Positions 48,373-63,198 of a DNA stretch of 64,000 nucleotides are shown piece after piece; the stretch's first letter is position 1, and the number at the start of each line of letters is the position of its first letter. The stretch is from positions 1 to 64,000 of the forward strand of contig NZ_JALJCL010000013.1 in assembly GCF_023698535.1 (NCBI RefSeq), written 5' to 3'. Below the pieces are notes generated by a model. That model was not told the DNA's origin. It made no database searches and saw nothing but the letters and a program-made list of their open reading frames with translations. The stretch is from Halorientalis regularis. GTDB lineage: Archaea > Halobacteriota > Halobacteria > Halobacteriales > Haloarculaceae. Made by a program: the position numbers and the translations under genes.

Positions 48373-49290
48373 GTGACACGTACTGAACGAGCGAGGGGGG
48401 CGCTACTTGGCCTGGCCTGTGGCGATGCGCTCGGACGACCCGTCGAGTTCAATTCGGCCGCACAGATCGAACAGCGGCATGACCGCTTGACGGAGATGCT
48501 CGGGCACGGTACGCACGGCCAGCCGCCGGGCACGATCACTGACGACACCGAGATGGCGCTGTGCATTGCCAGAAGCCTCGCTGAGCGCGGGCAATTCGAC
48601 CCCGAGGATATCGCGGCGCGGTTCGTCGAGTGGTACGATAGCGGTCCGTTCGACATCGGAGTGATGACCGCAGATGCATTGCGGCAGATCAAGTCCGGAG
48701 CATCGTTGGACGAGGCCGGACAGATGGTCTGGGAGCAACGACCGGAAGGCCAAAACGCGGGCAACGGAAGCGTGATGCGATGTGTTCCGCACGCACTGGC
48801 GTTCGCCGACGGTCACGAGACCCTCGTCGAGGTGAGTCGACAGTCCTCATCAATCACGCACGCCGACCCGCGATGTACGACTGGGTGCGCGATCCTGAAC
48901 AGTACTGTCGCCGGACTGATCGAAGGTCGCGACGATGCGCTCGCGGATTCACTCTCAGCTCTCCACGACGTGCCCGCGGAACTTCGCGACGCACTCGCGC
49001 CGATCCCGGACGGTATCGAAGAGAGGGAGCTCGCTTCGAGTGGCTACGTCGTCCACACGCTCCAGACGGCGCTCTACCTCGGCCTCACCGCGGACTCTGC
49101 CGAAGAAACGATCGTTACTGCGGTGAACATGGGCGACGACACCGACACCGTGGGAGCAGTCACAGGCGCGGTCGCCGGCGCTCGGTTCGGTGTCGATAGC
49201 CTCCCCGACCGTTGGTTTGAAGAACTCGACTGCGAGGTAGAACTCCGCTCGTTGGCGACGACATTGTACGAGGACCCGATCACATCGTGA
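48373..49290 (+). CDS. ADP-ribosylglycohydrolase (DraG-like)
   Basis: A 305-residue ADP-ribosyl hydrolase of the DraG/ARH fold. The two metal-binding motifs are TITDDTEMAL (T56, D57, D58) and MGDDTDTVGAVTGAVAGA near the C terminus; HADPRC is the usual third element. It would remove ADP-ribose from protein or nucleic acid. The start is GTG at 48373 because no in-frame ATG precedes the conserved MTRTERARGALLGLACGDALG. No ADP-ribosyltransferase gene lies close by. First gene of the accessory region. Confidence 0.9.
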   Translation: MTRTERARGALLGLACGDALGRPVEFNSAAQIEQRHDRLTEMLGHGTHGQPPGTITDDTEMALCIARSLAERGQFDPEDIAARFVEWYDSGPFDIGVMTADALRQIKSGASLDEAGQMVWEQRPEGQNAGNGSVMRCVPHALAFADGHETLVEVSRQSSSITHADPRCTTGCAILNSTVAGLIEGRDDALADSLSALHDVPAELRDALAPIPDGIEERELASSGYVVHTLQTALYLGLTADSAEETIVTAVNMGDDTDTVGAVTGAVAGARFGVDSLPDRWFEELDCEVELRSLATTLYEDPITS

Positions 49291-55261: not shown

Positions 55262-56860
55262 TCAGCAGAGCAGGAGGTACAGCCAGTACGGGAGTTCGAC
55301 GATGCCGTCGCGGACCTCACTAATGGGTTCGGAACCGCGGATGGTGTCGCCGGTCAGGACGAACCCGATTGGAGCGTCGTAGGCACCTGTGAATTCCTCG
55401 CCGGCGGCTAATGCGTCGTCGCGCTCGCGGGGTCGGTACGCAAGGCCGACGGGAACTGGCGTATCCCCTATCTCGAAGACGAAGTCGACCTCGCCGTTGC
55501 GGCCACGCCAGTACTGAACGGTCGGGTCTACGTCGTTGCCCTGCTGGGCGTTGATCCCGTACGCGAAGCGCATCGTGTGGTCGAACGCGGCGACGCGTGC
55601 GAGTTCTGCTTCTCGGTCGAAGTCGTTCCGGACGGTCGACGGGTCGCCGTCGGCGAGCGCGGTCACCAGCCCGGTGTCGCGAAGGAACAGTCGCACGGAC
55701 CGCGGGCGGCTGTTGTCGTACTCGGTGACGCCGGTCAGGACGTACAGTTCGGCGAGCGCCGAGAGGTAGCTATCGGCGATCGTTCGCCGGTCGACGTCGA
55801 AGAGGTCGACGAGTTCCTGGTAGCGAATCGGTTCGACGCCGCGGTTGCGAGCGGCGAGCGCACAGAGGCGTTCCAGGTCGGCGATGGTCTTGATCGACTC
55901 GAAGTCTGGGACCTCCTGGTAGAGCGCGTTACGTACGTCGTCGCGAAGTCGTGCGTAGTCGTCGGCGGTGAGGTCTCGCGCTGACTCTACGACGCCATCG
56001 CGCTCGTAGCTGATGACGCCGCCCATCGCGAGGTATTCCACGACCTGTGATTGAATGCGGCGAGCATCGGCCGCTACCTGCTCGTACTTGCTCTCGAGTT
56101 CGTCGATCAAGGGGTCGATGTCTCCGGTGTCCATCGCGGTGGGGAGGCTGCGTTCGCCCGTTCGCAGTGAACTGGGACTGACGCGAGTTTCGCCGGTCTC
56201 GAGTTCGGGATACACCGCAAAGACGTAGTCGCGGAACTTCTCCGGGAGGACAGGTTGAGTGTCGTAGGCGCCATCGTCGAAGCCGACGCGATCCAGTTCG
56301 CGTTCGACCTGGAGGCCGGCGCTGGCAGTAACGACGACGTGGCGGTCCTGGTTGTCTGCGAGGAGTTCCGAGACGACCGTTCCCCAGCCGTCGACAGCTG
56401 GTTTGTTCGGGTGTTCGATCCGGTGAACGTCGTCGAGCAACACGATCTCCGGTCGGTCGCTATCGGTACGGCCCAGGATTCGTGTCTCGTAGTAACGGAT
56501 AGCCTGTCGGAGTTGGTCGTCGGAGTCGAGCTGGTAGAGCGGGTCCGCGTCGAAGGGGAGGTAGAGAAACCGCTCCGGTGAATCGCCTGCTTCGATCCGG
56601 TGCTTGATGAACGCGTGCAGGAGCGTCGTTTTCCCGACGCCGCTGCGACCGACGAGTGCGAACAGTTGCTGGCCTTCGACACGGTTCCCTGATTCGTCGG
56701 GTCGCGCCAGGTGGTAGAAGTCGCTCTTGTGGCGGTCGGGCAGGGAAAACGCGGCCGCTCCCTCGTCCCACCAGGGGTTGTGCTCGTGTAGCGACCGGAT
56801 GAGGCTGTCGCCCGCATCGAGAGCCATATGGAATTCTCTGTCCTGGATCAAGAAGCCCAT
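55262..56860 (-). CDS. AAA ATPase with DUF4143/nuclease-like C terminus
   Basis: A 532-residue STAND/archaeal-type ATPase. Walker A is GRSGVGKTTL (71-80), Walker B EIVLLDDVHR (138-147). A winged-helix region follows (RYQELVDLFDVDRRTIADSYLSALAELYVL). The C-terminal domain has the DUF4143-like NGEVDFVFEIG strand, but the usual lysine of the nuclease-type E-V-D...x-K site is not evident. It belongs to the archaeal ATPase group often found in mobile or toxin-like contexts. The start at 56860 is preferred. It diverges from the VWA gene across 292 bases. Confidence 0.85.
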   Translation of the reverse strand: MGFLIQDREFHMALDAGDSLIRSLHEHNPWWDEGAAAFSLPDRHKSDFYHLARPDESGNRVEGQQLFALVGRSGVGKTTLLHAFIKHRIEAGDSPERFLYLPFDADPLYQLDSDDQLRQAIRYYETRILGRTDSDRPEIVLLDDVHRIEHPNKPAVDGWGTVVSELLADNQDRHVVVTASAGLQVERELDRVGFDDGAYDTQPVLPEKFRDYVFAVYPELETGETRVSPSSLRTGERSLPTAMDTGDIDPLIDELESKYEQVAADARRIQSQVVEYLAMGGVISYERDGVVESARDLTADDYARLRDDVRNALYQEVPDFESIKTIADLERLCALAARNRGVEPIRYQELVDLFDVDRRTIADSYLSALAELYVLTGVTEYDNSRPRSVRLFLRDTGLVTALADGDPSTVRNDFDREAELARVAAFDHTMRFAYGINAQQGNDVDPTVQYWRGRNGEVDFVFEIGDTPVPVGLAYRPRERDDALAAGEEFTGAYDAPIGFVLTGDTIRGSEPISEVRDGIVELPYWLYLLLC

Positions 56861-57152
56861 CGTAATGGTTCTTTTGACCGAACTATCGTCGTACAAACGG
56901 AGGTTACCCCCTGAAACGTGGCCGAGATAAACGGTTCTACCGACATGAACTATAAGCCACATCACGGTGTTGTTTGTATCAACCAGACACTCACCGCTAT
57001 TCGGATTTGCGACAGATTTAAATCATTATAGCGAAAACAAATGGGTGCATTCGGAGAATAAGGAACATCCAGATGTCGGTTACGAGTGCCACTCCCGAGT
57101 CAGTTCGTCGAACGCCCGTCGGTCGCCCGGGGCACGGCGGCCAGCCCGATCC
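56861..57152. promoter_or_regulatory. divergent AT-rich promoter region
   Basis: This 292-base gap between the ATPase gene (minus) and the VWA gene (plus) is AT-rich (about 48% GC). On the plus strand, atttaaatcattatagcg (57016-57033) can be a TATA box, leaving a leader of about 100 bases before the VWA start. On the minus strand gttcttttgacc and cgaactatcg lie near the ATPase start. Common control of both directions is possible. Confidence 0.45.
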
Positions 57153-59261
57153 ATGAATTCGAATCACACCGACCTTCGCGACGGAGTGCGCAGCGATCTC
57201 ACCGTCGAGTTCGTCACACAGCGCACACTCGAAAGCTGCGGCGAGACCGTCCAACGTCTCGTCGTAACCACCGACGACGGGGAAGAACACGAACTGGTCG
57301 TCACTCCGGCGCGGAGCCCGATCGGCGGCCTCGAGACCGGGAATCGGTACGACTTCCACGATATCGTCGGCTGTGCACCCGTCGACAAAGCGGCATCCGC
57401 GCCTGCGAGGTGCCCGGACTGTGGGGACCGGCTTCGAGAGGGAACGACGGTCGACGCAATCGGCGACGCTGTGACCGAGGCGGCTACGACGCTAGAGCTC
57501 TCGGACGTGTTCGGCGTCGTAGGCGAAGAGACGACCGTCACGCCGGTCCGTGACGACGACACGAACGTCGACGACTGGCAGCCGCGCCCCCAGAATAACC
57601 AAACCCAGGCCGTTACCGCTCCAGACTACGTTTGTGATGCCTGTGGGCGGCACGTCAGTCAGCACGAACTACGCAGCCACGAAGACGCAACGGCGGATAA
57701 CGCGCAGATAATGGCGGACCACGCCCCTGCGGCTAGTGCTGATATGGCCAGTCCCGAGACGGTCGGGCTGGCGGCCGGCGGGGCGAAAGACGTCACGAAC
57801 TTCCGGGAGAACGCCGAGAGCGGCTACACGCCACAACCCGAGGCAATCAGCGACGAGGGGCTGTTCTACGACTACTACTTCGAGACGGGCGCGCCGACGG
57901 AGACGGACGCGCTGTTCGCGCCGCGATACGCAGCGGCCGTGAGCGAACACCCGATCTCCGGTGAAACCGAGCGCTATCTGTCGGTCGGGCTGGACTCGAC
58001 GCTCTCGGTGGCGGAGTTCGAACGCCCCCGACTGGATCTGGTCGCCGTACTCGATGTTTCCGGGTCGATGAACAGCGAGTTCGACGGGTACTACTACGAT
58101 GAACACGGGCGCAAACGCGAGGCCGAGAACGACGCCACGACGAAACTGGCAGCCGCCACTCAATCGCTCTGTGCACTGACCGAGCAGCTCTGCGACGACG
58201 ACCGGCTGGGCGTCGTGCTGTACAACAACCGGGCGCACGTCGCGAAACCACTCCGGGACGTCGGATCGACGGACATGGATGCGATCCGGCGACACATCGG
58301 CGAGGTCAGTGCGGGCGGCGGAACGAACCTCGAAGACGGCTTCGAGGCTGCCTGGGACATGCTCGCTGACGGTGAACCCCGCGAAGATCTCGAACGGCGC
58401 GTCGTGTTCATGACCGACATGATGCCCAATATGGGCGCAACCGACGAAAGCGAGCTCACCGACTTGTTCGCCGACGCGGCCGACCGTGGCATCCACACGA
58501 CGTTCATCGGGATGGGGCTGGACGCCAATGCCGAACTTGCCGACGCGCTGTCGGGGATTCGGGGTGCGAATCACTACTTCGTTCACTCGGCGACGGAGTT
58601 CGAGCAGCGCCTGGGCGAGGAATTCGCGTACATGGTCACACCGCTGGTCTATGACCTTGGGCTGGAACTGGAGACCGACGAATGCGAGATCGCCGCGGTA
58701 CACGGGTCCCCGTCAGCCGACGACGCGACCGGGGAGCTGATGCACGTCACCACGCTGTTCCCCTCGGCCAAGGACGACGGGGAAGCCCGTGGCGGCGTGG
58801 TCCTGCTCCGACTGGATGGCGGAGTCGGGCCGGTGAACGTCGACCTGATCGCGTCCTGGACCGAACGCGACGGGAGCGAGCACTCCCAGCGGGTGACCGT
58901 CGCGCTCCCCGACGGCACGGAGTCGTTCGACCACGACGGCGTTCGGAAGGCCGTCGCGCTGGCCCGCTACGCCAGGGAACTCCGCTCGTGGGCGAGAAAC
59001 GTCCACGAGCGCGCTGCGTCGACCAACGGGGTCGACGATTGGCTGCCGACCGACCAGCGGGGCGAACACGAACGGGAATCCGTGCCGCTAGGCGTCCCGG
59101 ATGAGTACACGGCACGGTTCGAGCAACTCCGGGCGTATCTGGACGCCGAGATGCAGGCTGTCGGCGACGACGACATGGAACAGGAACTGGCGCTGCTCGA
59201 CATGCTCCTCGAGCACGGTGCGAACAGAAACCCCGACACGAACCAGGAATCCGAGAGGTGA
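57153..59261 (+). CDS. VWA-domain protein with Zn-ribbon cysteines
   Basis: A 702-residue protein and first gene of the suspected conflict operon. Residues about 1-185 form a novel N-terminal part with two CxxC pairs (87-90 and 161-164) that can hold one zinc. The VWA domain spans about 292-490, with the MIDAS residues intact: D301-x-S303-x-S305, T391 in GGGTNLEDG and D422 in FMTDMMPN. After it comes a beta-rich region (about 500-590) and a helical C terminus. VWA proteins bind partners by metal-dependent contacts, often with AAA ATPases. Its stop is seven bases before the next gene, so they are co-transcribed. Confidence 0.8.
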   Translation: MNSNHTDLRDGVRSDLTVEFVTQRTLESCGETVQRLVVTTDDGEEHELVVTPARSPIGGLETGNRYDFHDIVGCAPVDKAASAPARCPDCGDRLREGTTVDAIGDAVTEAATTLELSDVFGVVGEETTVTPVRDDDTNVDDWQPRPQNNQTQAVTAPDYVCDACGRHVSQHELRSHEDATADNAQIMADHAPAASADMASPETVGLAAGGAKDVTNFRENAESGYTPQPEAISDEGLFYDYYFETGAPTETDALFAPRYAAAVSEHPISGETERYLSVGLDSTLSVAEFERPRLDLVAVLDVSGSMNSEFDGYYYDEHGRKREAENDATTKLAAATQSLCALTEQLCDDDRLGVVLYNNRAHVAKPLRDVGSTDMDAIRRHIGEVSAGGGTNLEDGFEAAWDMLADGEPREDLERRVVFMTDMMPNMGATDESELTDLFADAADRGIHTTFIGMGLDANAELADALSGIRGANHYFVHSATEFEQRLGEEFAYMVTPLVYDLGLELETDECEIAAVHGSPSADDATGELMHVTTLFPSAKDDGEARGGVVLLRLDGGVGPVNVDLIASWTERDGSEHSQRVTVALPDGTESFDHDGVRKAVALARYARELRSWARNVHERAASTNGVDDWLPTDQRGEHERESVPLGVPDEYTARFEQLRAYLDAEMQAVGDDDMEQELALLDMLLEHGANRNPDTNQESER

Positions 59262-59268
59262 CTCACCG

Positions 59269-61050
59269 ATGCACGTGTTCGCCTTCGATCGCGACTGGAC
59301 CGTCGACGTGAATCCGCACCCGCGACACGAGGCCGTGCCGCTAGAGTGGGTCAAGCATCTCGCCCACGAGACCCATCACGCAGTGTACGCGATCGGGAAT
59401 CAAGACCTTGCCGAGGAAGCGGCGATCCCCGGCGTGGTCGACATCGTCGGTCGCCACGCCGACAACTGGGACGAGTGGCTCGGCGGCAAACAGCCCGATG
59501 GATACTACGAACGATTCCCGACCCGCCGCGAACGCCTGTCACTCATCGCCGACCTGCATCCCGACGCCGACGAATACGTCGTCGTCGACGACCTCGACCT
59601 GAGCGATATCGCCGGCTGGGCGCACTACCACGCCTGGGAGTTCGTCCCAGCCGTGGAACGCGGGGAGATACATCCGGACCTCCCTTGGGCTCGCGAGCCT
59701 GTCGCCGACGGTGGATATCCGACGAGTGCGGGCATCATCCCGGTCGACGCCGCCGATCTCGCGGAGTTCATCGACGAGTATGCTGACGCGCCGGCGTTCG
59801 AACTCAGGTACGATGATGAGAGTTCGGAGCGCACCTACCTGTTGGCCGATATCTCGGTGATCGACCGGACGGTCGAGCGCCCAGCTGCTGCACCGGCGAT
59901 TCGGTGTCACCCAGCTTCGCCACGAGCTGATCCGTTCTCGGTGCGCGTCGATGCCGTCGAGCAACTGTCGACTGTCGATCCACCGGCAGAGGCGTTCACC
60001 GCGGCCGCCGAGGCGCCAACCGAACGCGCGACCGCGCTCCGGCGACTGGCCGAGGCGAAACCCGACGCAGTCACTGTCTCTGCGGTCCTCACGTTGCTGG
60101 ACAATCAAAACGAAGACTCCCGGCAGGACGCGCTCAGAGCGTTGCGCCTCGTGGCGGATAATCGTCCCGAGGACTGCACGCCAGCGATTCCGATCCTCCG
60201 GTCGCTGTTACAGCGCGACGACCTCGCTGCGCCCGCCGATGCACTCGGAACACTCCAAGCGATCGGCGAAACCGACCCCGCTGACATCGCGCCACTGACC
60301 GAGGAGATCAGGACGTATCTCGGTGCAGCCGACGACGCGGTTCGACGCGAGTCCGTCCGATGCATCGCCGCGATCGCAGACGGTGACCCAGCGGACGCAG
60401 TCGACGCTGTGCCCGCGCTCGCAACCGTCATCGAAGACCAGGCTGACGGGTTGCCGTACGCGGTGTACACGCTCTCCTGTGTCACCCAAGAGTTCCCGGA
60501 AGCGGTCGAACCGGCGGCTGGTGCACTCGGTGACGTAATCGCTGACGCCACACAGCAGGATTCCGTCCGGCTGAACGCGACCGCAGCGCTCGGCCGCATC
60601 GTCGGTGAACACCCGGACACCGGGCTCGACATCGTCGACGATGTCGCGGCCCTGTTCGACGCCGACAATCGTAAACTCAGGAACAACGCCGTCGGACTGG
60701 TCGGTGACGTCGCCACGGTCCACACCGACGTCGTCGAACCATACACCGACGACATCGGATCGTTGTTGACTGTCGACGACACGTACACGCGGATCAACGC
60801 GAGTGCGGCGCTCGCTCGCATCGCCGAAGACTTCCCGGACGAGGTGGCCCCGCTTGCACCGCAATTCCGTACGTTGCTCGACGACGACCATCCGGTCGTC
60901 CGGAAAAACGCGTGCTGGGCGCTCGGCCACCTCGGCGACGACACGGCAAAATCGACGCTAGAAACGATCAGCGAGACGGACGACGACGAAGACGTCCGGA
61001 CCCGGGCCATGTGGGCGGTCGCTCAGATCGAAGGTGCACACGACCCGTAA
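59269..61050 (+). CDS. HAD-like N-terminal domain fused to HEAT repeats
   Basis: A 593-residue fusion. Residues 1-130 look like a HAD-superfamily domain: motif I FAFDRDWTV (D7, D9, T11, as D-x-D-x-T), a degenerate motif II (AIGNQD) and motif IV VVVDDLDL (D107, D108). About 230-590 is an array of roughly eight HEAT/armadillo-like repeats (ALRALRLVADNRPEDC, SVRCIAAIADGDPAD, NAVGLVGDVATVHTDV, NASAALARIAEDFPDE, NACWALGHLGDD). HEAT arrays bind proteins or nucleic acids. Phosphatase activity is possible but not proven. The fusion is unusual to me. Seven bases after the VWA gene. Confidence 0.75.
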   Translation: MHVFAFDRDWTVDVNPHPRHEAVPLEWVKHLAHETHHAVYAIGNQDLAEEAAIPGVVDIVGRHADNWDEWLGGKQPDGYYERFPTRRERLSLIADLHPDADEYVVVDDLDLSDIAGWAHYHAWEFVPAVERGEIHPDLPWAREPVADGGYPTSAGIIPVDAADLAEFIDEYADAPAFELRYDDESSERTYLLADISVIDRTVERPAAAPAIRCHPASPRADPFSVRVDAVEQLSTVDPPAEAFTAAAEAPTERATALRRLAEAKPDAVTVSAVLTLLDNQNEDSRQDALRALRLVADNRPEDCTPAIPILRSLLQRDDLAAPADALGTLQAIGETDPADIAPLTEEIRTYLGAADDAVRRESVRCIAAIADGDPADAVDAVPALATVIEDQADGLPYAVYTLSCVTQEFPEAVEPAAGALGDVIADATQQDSVRLNATAALGRIVGEHPDTGLDIVDDVAALFDADNRKLRNNAVGLVGDVATVHTDVVEPYTDDIGSLLTVDDTYTRINASAALARIAEDFPDEVAPLAPQFRTLLDDDHPVVRKNACWALGHLGDDTAKSTLETISETDDDEDVRTRAMWAVAQIEGAHDP

Positions 61051-61120: not shown

Positions 61121-61621
61121 ATGTCAACACCAGACTCAGACGGCACTCCCAACTACTGGATAACGACCGCGAGTCCGACGATCGAAGCCGTCGTGAACCC
61201 GCTGACGGCAGCCTGTACCGAAGCCGGGTACGTTCCCGACGTCGTTCGGATCTTGGACAATCCCACTGTCCGCGAAAGCAGTGCGCGAGCTGCCGAGTTG
61301 GCGGGAGAGCTCGTCGCTGCACACGCAGGTGAAGAACCCGACATCGACCGCATCACGATCGAAACCGAACGTAATTTTGAAGCCATCGTCGACTACCACC
61401 GACACGCGGTCGAAGACGCTCACGACGACGGTGCGACAGTCGCGATCGACGTGACGCCCGGCCGGAAGTTCATGTCCGCGATCGCCTTCCAGGCTGGCAT
61501 CCAGTTCGACGCTGACCACGTGTACTATCTGCATCTCCACTCCAGCGACTACTACAATCGGGTCTATCCCGAGATCCCCAGGCCCGGTGTCGACCTCGTG
61601 GACTTCACGGAGGTATTCTGA
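61121..61621 (+). CDS. stand-alone CARF-like Rossmann domain protein
   Basis: A 166-residue protein that reads like a CARF (CRISPR-associated Rossmann fold) domain without an effector. The N-terminal strand-loop WITTASPTIEAVVNPLTAACTEAGYVPD is the usual first half. The ligand-loop motif is VAIDVTPGRKFMSA (107-120, the counterpart of D-x-TGG-x-K-x-M-S), followed by ADHVYYLHLHSSDYYNRVYPEIPRPGVDLVDF, also typical. CARF domains bind cyclic oligoadenylates or related messengers. No HTH, HEPN or other domain is attached. Its stop overlaps the ATG of the PIN gene by one base. A 70-base gap separates it from the HEAT gene. Confidence 0.75.
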   Translation: MSTPDSDGTPNYWITTASPTIEAVVNPLTAACTEAGYVPDVVRILDNPTVRESSARAAELAGELVAAHAGEEPDIDRITIETERNFEAIVDYHRHAVEDAHDDGATVAIDVTPGRKFMSAIAFQAGIQFDADHVYYLHLHSSDYYNRVYPEIPRPGVDLVDFTEVF

Positions 61622-62664
61622 TGCTACTGGCACGCTCATCTCTGATGTTACTGCTCAACGCGTTGTACGACCATGGGCAGACCACGATCACAGTCGAACA
61701 TCCGTCGGACGAGATCGGGGAACTACTGCGTATCCGACTCGACGATACGACCGAAGCGACCGTGAGCATCACCGCCGATCGCTACGAGTACGAGGACCGC
61801 CGCGCCGAGGTCGAGCGTGAGTACGGCGACGCCGCCTACGAGGACCTGCCCCAGCCTCAGGATTACGTTCGAACGCTTATCGCCGGCGGGCTGTTCGACG
61901 TAGCTAACAAAGACGAGATCGACGAGTTCCTGCGACGACACGGCACGCCGGACTTGGAGGCTGGACACGATCCAGTGATGGCCGGGATCGACACGAACCT
62001 GTTTGGCTGGCAACTACCCTCGGTCCTGGATCTCGACCCCGATGCCGAGCAATATCACCGATCCAACGGCAGACCGCCCGTGACCGGATTCGTCCTCTCC
62101 TCGGGCGTCAAAGAAGAACTGGACTGGCACTACAAGCACTACGACACTCGAGAGCTGACGCGGGCCTTCGGCGACGAGTTCGAGCGCCTCGACAACCAGC
62201 CCGCCGGGGAGAACCGCGAGGGGTTCCTCGGGTTGTATCAGTTCCGCCGGTTGATGGCGCGACGGCAGACTGACTTCGCGTACAGCGATACCGGTGACGC
62301 CGAGATCGTCGAGGGATACGTCGACTACCAGGACGAACACCGGAAGGAAGTCCTGCTGTTCAGCAACGACACGGGCTTCGTTGAGCGCGCCAACGACGCG
62401 GGCGTCAAAGCTCAGAAGGTCGCCTTCCCGCCGAACGTTCCGAAGCGGGCGACTGTCCAGTGGGAAACGCTGTGTGATCTACTGTACGTTGCAGCTGTCA
62501 TCTTCGGTGTCATCGTGCTTCCGAAGGCGACGCTATACGGTGTCTGGAACGGAAAGAACGGATCACATTGGAAAAATCAGAAATTGGTCATCGAAAACCG
62601 AAGCCCGAAACTCGAAGCACAACTCGACCGCGATAGCCGAATCGTGGACGCGTACGACGGGTAA
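61621..62664 (+). CDS. PIN-domain nuclease partnered with CARF protein
   Basis: A 347-residue protein. The N-terminal 115 residues are of unknown fold, with a helical winged-helix-like stretch (DYVRTLIAGGLFDVANKDEIDEFLRRHG). The PIN domain follows: D124 in AGIDTNLF, E165/E166 in SSGVKEELDW, and D250 in LLFSNDTGFVERANDAG. A C-terminal segment of about 60 residues has a hydrophobic helix (VAAVIFGVIVLPKATLYGVW) that could contact the membrane. PIN domains are metal-dependent RNases. The one-base stop/start overlap with the CARF gene implies strict co-translation and probable complex formation. Confidence 0.72.
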   Translation: MLLARSSLMLLLNALYDHGQTTITVEHPSDEIGELLRIRLDDTTEATVSITADRYEYEDRRAEVEREYGDAAYEDLPQPQDYVRTLIAGGLFDVANKDEIDEFLRRHGTPDLEAGHDPVMAGIDTNLFGWQLPSVLDLDPDAEQYHRSNGRPPVTGFVLSSGVKEELDWHYKHYDTRELTRAFGDEFERLDNQPAGENREGFLGLYQFRRLMARRQTDFAYSDTGDAEIVEGYVDYQDEHRKEVLLFSNDTGFVERANDAGVKAQKVAFPPNVPKRATVQWETLCDLLYVAAVIFGVIVLPKATLYGVWNGKNGSHWKNQKLVIENRSPKLEAQLDRDSRIVDAYDG

Positions 62665-62709: not shown

Positions 62710-63198
62710 CTACTCTCCGATCTCCTGTAGTTTGTTTTGGACTTGCGTGTACACTGTCGGATGAAGGTTCATTCCTTCGTTGACGAGATCGTACAGGACA
62801 TCACTGGCTTCTGTTGGTGACAGCACACCCTCTTTTGCGCATTTTAGCAGCAGTGTGGTCACCCACCAACACTCGACGCCATGACTCCGGGCAACTTGGA
62901 TCAGTCCCTTGTCGTTGGCCAGAAGTACTTCTTCGCCTTCGTCGGCCAACAAAACCACAGCCGCGTCCGTGACGGCGATCCCCTCCATCGCGGCTACTTC
63001 CTCGGCCTGTGCCGGCGTCTCGCACACTGTGACATCCTCCAAAAACGAGCGAAGCGGGGCGGTGCCTCTTTGCCCCTCGGCAATGACTTCTTCTCTCACC
63101 CCGTCAGGTGTTCGGATTTCGTCGAAGACAGCAGAGACGAGATCGAGGCGGCCGATCCGCGCCAGCGGGATCAGCGCAGACGAATCCACGACGACCAT
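62710..63198 (-). CDS. vapC: VapC-like PIN toxin
   Basis: A 162-residue PIN-domain protein of the COG2405 type (DUF3368-like). The acidic sites are D5 in VVVDSSALIPLA, E38-E39 in GVREEVIAEG, D77 in AVTDAAVVLLAD and D94 in LLANDKGLIQVA. It would cleave RNA when not bound by antitoxin. Its ATG overlaps the stop of the antitoxin gene by one base, the standard layout of a toxin-antitoxin pair. It converges on the PIN/CARF operon. Confidence 0.88.
   Translation of the reverse strand: MVVVDSSALIPLARIGRLDLVSAVFDEIRTPDGVREEVIAEGQRGTAPLRSFLEDVTVCETPAQAEEVAAMEGIAVTDAAVVLLADEGEEVLLANDKGLIQVARSHGVECWWVTTLLLKCAKEGVLSPTEASDVLYDLVNEGMNLHPTVYTQVQNKLQEIGE

Follow-up and report, generated by a model that had tools for sequence, protein, structure and literature searches.

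The locus analysed here raises the question of what is accomplished by a protein in which a HAD-like domain is followed by a long HEAT-repeat array, and in which pathway such a protein would act. The gene lies in a 64,000-nucleotide stretch of Halorientalis regularis DNA (hereafter the window), and its features and neighbours are listed in Table 1. The longest mechanical ORF of the gene begins at 59101; the homologues begin at an ATG matching 59269, and this start codon lies 7 bp past the stop codon of the preceding VWA gene. Within the product, Pfam detects HEAT-type repeats only, and the HAD-like and middle regions have no family match in Pfam, NCBIfam, PADLOC or PHROGs.

Table 1. Positions of the HAD-HEAT gene, its domains and its neighbours in the window
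Feature	Position	Strand	Basis or remark
ADP-ribosylglycohydrolase (ARH/DraG-like)	48373..49290	+	only one found in the genome
Divergent AAA_14-DUF4143 ATPase	55262..56965	-	position conserved in lineage 1
VWA-domain protein	56967..59261	+	MIDAS DVSGS at residue 363; possible true start 57153
HAD-HEAT gene	59269-61050	+	593 aa plus stop
HAD-like domain, residues 1-140	59269..59688	+	conservation, AF2, Foldseek to annotated viral HADs
HAD-like motifs			I D7-R8-D9-W10-T11; II position I42-G43-N44; III R86; IV D107-D108 (plus D110)
Middle beta-rich domain (MID), residues 149-237	59713..59979	+	conserved together with the HEAT array
HEAT/ARM-type array, residues 241-593	59989..61047	+	Pfam, AlphaFold model, Foldseek
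CARF-domain protein (PADLOC CARF_m1 family)	61121..61621	+	E 1.3e-57; motif DVTPGRK
PIN-domain nuclease	61621..62664	+	PIN_4; CARF_m1--CARF_PIN E 4e-30

Residues 1-214 were searched against 392 haloarchaeal genomes, and relatives were detected in 61 of these. In an alignment of 60 relatives, D7, R8 and D9 are identical in all rows, each of which was required to contain DRD, and R86, D107 and D108 are conserved at 97%, 98% and 97%, respectively; the DRD filter removed five matches, each of them a MID/HEAT protein without a HAD domain, a fragment or an unrelated protein. Additionally, all six residues are invariant in a diverse alignment of 34 rows with 35-85% identity to the window protein. The sequence-only reading had regarded the N-terminal DxDxT (F6-D7-R8-D9-W10-T11) and the DD pair (D107-D108) as HAD motifs I and IV, and both withstood this comparison: D7, D9, D107 and D108 are conserved among the homologues and sit in a confidently modelled structure where HAD motifs would be expected. 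Neither of the outcomes that this reading had set as grounds against it, loss of these aspartates or a better fit of residues 1-200 to another fold, was observed. Motif I (DxDx[TSV]) is present at the end of strand 1, R86 of motif III is the first residue of helix 86-96, which precedes strand 4, and the acidic pair of motif IV follows strand 102-106. The same reading had judged motif II to be weak, and correctly so: the canonical Thr/Ser is absent and Ile42 takes its place in the window protein and in all 31 HEAT-fused proteins. Thr/Ser is kept in 20 stand-alone HAD relatives, and Ile42 also occurs in some stand-alone relatives. Because the motif II Thr/Ser is missing from the HEAT-fused members, their domain is classed as HAD-like by descent and not as a canonical active HAD, and the replacement of Thr by Ile may have changed or abolished its phosphatase activity.

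Structural modelling of the whole HAD-HEAT protein gave a mean AlphaFold pLDDT of 90.9, and the isolated HAD domain was also modelled confidently (AF2), with core blocks mostly at pLDDT 93-97. In the model, motif I lies at strand 1, motif II at strand 2, motif III at the helix preceding strand 4 and motif IV at strand 4 itself; the topology agrees with that of a HAD apart from strand 3, for which a helix is predicted. The best Foldseek match in a viral library was the uncharacterised Alphaspiravirus protein J7Q7K5 (E 7e-7, rmsd 2.4, 27% identity), a 111-aa archaeal virus protein which, unlike HAD-HEAT, carries no HEAT array; annotated HADs followed at probability 0.84-0.99 and E 0.003 or worse. 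A Foldseek search of the HAD domain against the PDB yielded no match below E 1e-3, which counts against the explanation preferred below; the support from Foldseek for a HAD-like fold is only moderate. A PDB profile search returned only helical proteins of designed origin and a single weak hit, judged spurious, a PHROGs search gave nothing significant, and tblastn for phage relatives found none. The assignment of the N-terminal region as HAD-like is nonetheless upheld by the conserved aspartates and the placement of the motifs in a confident model.

The fusion of this domain to a HEAT array likewise stands, given significant Pfam matches (HEAT_2 2e-18, HEAT_EZ 5e-18) and 19 helices modelled across residues 250-590. 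These correspond to about nine HEAT/ARM repeats (241-590), so that the array proposed from the sequence is real and its estimate of roughly eight repeats is slightly low. The C-terminal repeats carry an Arg-x-Asn ladder with 37-residue spacing (N436/N473/N510/N547 and R471/R508/R545), in which each Asn is conserved at 86-100%. Foldseek matches the array to the importin-alpha, Vac8 and beta-catenin solenoids, and its modelled resemblance to the peptide-binding solenoids of importin-alpha and Vac8 counts in favour of the preferred explanation. Furthermore, MID and the HEAT array are conserved even in proteins without a HAD domain (evidence loci L060, L061 and L062).

In a tree of 71 HAD domains, in which many forks are unresolved, a supported branch separates the HEAT-fused members from the Thr42 stand-alone members, a pattern consistent with one fusion followed by losses or gene splits; the HAD-HEAT gene is split at two different points in L062 and L083. 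No member of the HAD-like family was found outside Halobacteria in the searches made, the contig scan relying on one motif from haloarchaeal rows and thus being liable to miss distant relatives, and, in a sample drawn from the wider phylum, all matches belonged to the order of the window organism itself. Two further arrangements were observed. In Halovenus rubra (L047:7551-14025), HAD and HEAT occur together as separate genes, a stand-alone HAD being followed by a Cdc48-like AAA ATPase and a 1137-aa HEAT protein at distances of 85 and 63 bp, and in L086:7953-8864 the HAD domain is fused to a different C-terminal region that replaces MID-HEAT.

The full locus order in lineage 1 is a divergent AAA-DUF4143 gene followed by VWA, HAD-MID-HEAT, (ARH), CARF and PIN. 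The VWA protein has zinc-ribbon-like Cys pairs upstream of its MIDAS, and a MIDAS-bearing VWA is present in 24/24 relatives. The CARF and PIN proteins match the PADLOC CARF_m1/CARF_PIN models (PDLC01972, PDLC01973) and correspond to the two halves of the CARF_PIN model, although in the locus these are two separate genes, the PIN start codon overlapping the CARF stop codon by one base. A DVTPGRK-type motif is found in 13 of 15 CARF proteins, and among 18 PIN proteins the SND motif is universal and G[LIV]DTN occurs in 10. A second PIN-domain protein with a weak match to PIN-TPR-GreABC is encoded just downstream of the operon on the opposite strand (62710-63198). Cas10 was detected in none of the 18 carrier genomes tested, the control genomes being positive, and cyclic oligoadenylate from type III CRISPR is therefore an unlikely trigger of the CARF-PIN pair. 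Ligand sensing is the presumed role of CARF proteins outside CRISPR, most of which have no known ligand; the repeated coupling of CARF-PIN to ARH in genomes without Cas10 offers a concrete candidate pathway for the CARF ligand.

The association of these loci with ADP-ribosylglycohydrolase (ARH) was not expected. An ARH gene lies within 2 kb at no fewer than 25 of 58 HAD places in the 392 genomes (at least 25/58), against about 0.08% expected per place by chance, and at the genome level ARH occurs in 47/61 genomes with HAD and 109/331 without (p about 1e-10, phylogeny not corrected for). The coupling takes several forms. In lineage 2, ARH precedes HAD-HEAT, usually with a 4-bp overlap and often near an AspBHI-N/HNH restriction gene. 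Overlaps of 1-4 bp couple ARH upstream of HAD-HEAT in L033, L089, L091, L092, L094 and L097, upstream of a stand-alone HAD in L043 and L130, and downstream in L084, where VWA, HAD-HEAT, ARH, CARF and PIN follow one another in a single run; in Halorientalis marina, the gene to which ARH is coupled is the divergent AAA gene. Most of these ARH relatives keep the TDDT-type and GDDTD-type motifs, and ARH scores as DraG-like, below the DraG cut-off. Among the ARH matches listed, 14/55 places have a CARF gene no more than 2 kb from ARH, and because some of these are in genomes or places without HAD, the link between ARH and CARF-PIN does not depend on HAD alone. Other enzymes join some loci: in L036/L037 (7.2-8.6 kb), a Nudix gene without HTH shares 25 bp with a stand-alone HAD, which fits ADP-ribose breakdown, and a calcineurin-type phosphoesterase is found in five lineage-1 loci (L062, L082, L083, L085 and L086).

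Additional conserved elements were observed around these genes. The lineage-1 ARH (L072:9558-11411, residues about 300-617; also L073, L075, L076 and L079) ends in a conserved domain of about 300 aa that none of Pfam, NCBIfam and PADLOC recognises. A conserved gene of about 373-497 aa lies between HAD-HEAT/phosphoesterase and CARF or ARH (L081:5103-6593, L082:11243-12364 and L086:9713-11206); family searches with it gave nothing significant, and the L081 protein also had no match in the PDB. In a separate study, a transposase disrupts the predicted ADP-ribosylglycohydrolase Hlac_2793 in the Halorubrum lacusprofundi strain that is susceptible to virus, this being one of many changes in that strain (PMC10544981).

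We infer from these associations that HAD-HEAT would be part of a haloarchaeal ADP-ribose module comprising ARH, a phosphate step by HAD, target holding by HEAT and VWA, and a CARF-PIN effector, a proposal to which we give roughly an even chance. ARH would strip ADP-ribose from modified macromolecules, and the HAD domain might act on a phosphate of the same pathway, e.g. that of a phosphorylated adduct or of ribose-5-phosphate or AMP derived from ADP-ribose. A modified or misfolded protein target would be held by the HEAT array together with the VWA protein, and CARF-PIN would serve as a ligand-gated RNase effector in a second line. Such an arrangement suggests a module that undoes or senses ADP-ribosylation, perhaps during virus attack. 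An extension of this scheme, which we consider quite unlikely, is an archaeal immune system whose alarm signal comes from ADP-ribose chemistry: proteins modified by a virus would be bound by VWA/HEAT, ARH and HAD would release from them a nucleotide derived from ADP-ribose, and CARF would sense this nucleotide, not cyclic oligoadenylate, and switch on PIN. Several observations count against the module, among them the motif II Ile of the HEAT-fused members. No ARH was recognised near most stand-alone HADs in L045-L059, and neither a viral trigger nor a target of an ADP-ribosyltransferase came to light. In the window itself, the ARH gene lies about 10 kb from HAD-HEAT, a gene that ARH adjoins in relatives; the operon has no ARH between HAD-HEAT and CARF, as is also the case in the close Halorientalis persicus copy (L124), and the ARH gene of L071 is internally deleted. 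The core operon may thus work without ARH, or may be decaying.

The loss of the motif II Thr/Ser invites the alternative that the HEAT-fused HAD is a non-catalytic or altered domain binding a phosphorylated ligand or ADP-ribose, from which HEAT relays to VWA/CARF-PIN, so that the protein is a sensor or scaffold. Ile at position 42 in every HEAT-fused member, where 20 stand-alone relatives keep Thr/Ser, and the absence of the HAD domain from some MID-HEAT proteins (L060, L061) speak for such a role; however, Ile42 is shared by some stand-alone relatives, and the near invariance of D7, D9, R86, D107 and D108 exceeds the usual needs of mere binding, and we regard this alternative as possible though doubtful. 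That the genes merely share a loose defence island, with HAD-HEAT acting alone on an unrelated metabolic or protein phosphate, would accommodate the stand-alone HADs with unrelated neighbours (L036-L059) and the transposases and restriction genes nearby, yet appears improbable in view of the tight ARH coupling that recurs in several arrangements and its enrichment over chance.

The sequence-only reading had suggested a nucleic-acid end or a phage protein as the target, and a closely related scenario is that HAD removes a 2' or 3' phosphate from RNA/DNA ends made by PIN, in the manner of Swiss-Army-Knife RNA repair. A PIN nuclease is indeed present in the operon, and by motif layout HAD_SAK_2 (PF18143) is the nearest HAD: it shares the DxDx[TV] motif I, the DD motif IV, a WAT-like motif II in stand-alone members and a compact domain with no room for a large cap, and by eye WATGN...EA..P then DD resembles its WATTW..AN..P then DD. 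In contrast to HAD_SAK_2, HAD-HEAT has Arg and not Lys at motif III, and the HEAT-fused members have Ile at motif II. Membership of that family was rejected, since PF18143 matches 0/34 relatives and hhalign gave a probability below 1%, in a comparison that is insensitive and lacks a positive control; the comparison proteins were from Streptomyces, retrieved with a HAD_SAK_2-like query, most of them matching PF18143 in Pfam and two scoring above the cut-off. Furthermore, the neighbours scanned included no recognisable ligase or kinase, and end processing leaves the ARH linkage unexplained. This scenario is thus decidedly improbable, and the targets suggested earlier are not supported as such; the gene neighbourhood points to ADP-ribose chemistry instead of nucleic-acid ends.

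The closest known counterparts of the proposed ADP-ribose module are the predicted bacterial ARG-centric systems, described in section 3.8 of Iyer et al. 2022 (PMC9503650) as combining ADP-ribosylglycohydrolase, a phosphatase, a vWA peptide-binding protein and nuclease effectors, and predicted computationally to counter viral ADP-ribosylation. A Nudix- or WYL-HTH regulator accompanies about 42% of them (PMC9503650), and that section names bacterial lineages only and makes no mention of HEAT or CARF-PIN. The haloarchaeal locus has in common with the systems set out there ARH, a putative phosphatase gene, a vWA protein, calcineurin phosphatases, nuclease effectors and variable modules. It differs in being archaeal, in its HAD-like family outside Pfam fused to HEAT, in its CARF-PIN effector and divergent AAA-DUF4143, and in the occasional loss of ARH. 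When the components are compared individually, the vWA/peptide-binding chaperone is present, the coupled phosphatase may be represented by the HAD-like domain (of putative activity) and, in the five lineage-1 loci, by the calcineurin-type enzyme, and an in-operon ARH is found in many relatives but not in the window. A coupled ADP-ribosyltransferase or sirtuin would not be expected in such a system; none was seen among the neighbours scanned, which were a part of the total, and the X373 gene and the C-terminal domain of ARH gave no family match. The locus was not classified as an ARG-centric member, as the window operon is without ARH and no Nudix- or WYL-HTH regulator was recognised among the neighbours scanned. 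By analogy, the best reading is that it represents an archaeal counterpart of the bacterial ARG, phosphatase and vWA systems (PMC9503650), which would extend the predicted systems countering ADP-ribosylation to archaea and adds a HAD-like family without a Pfam model. While the HAD-HEAT fusion alone is a modest curiosity, its recurrent linkage with ARH, and with a CARF-PIN pair independent of Cas10, is of note, and on this evidence the haloarchaeal locus would appear to work like an ARG-centric system, its components being of similar kinds but differently built.
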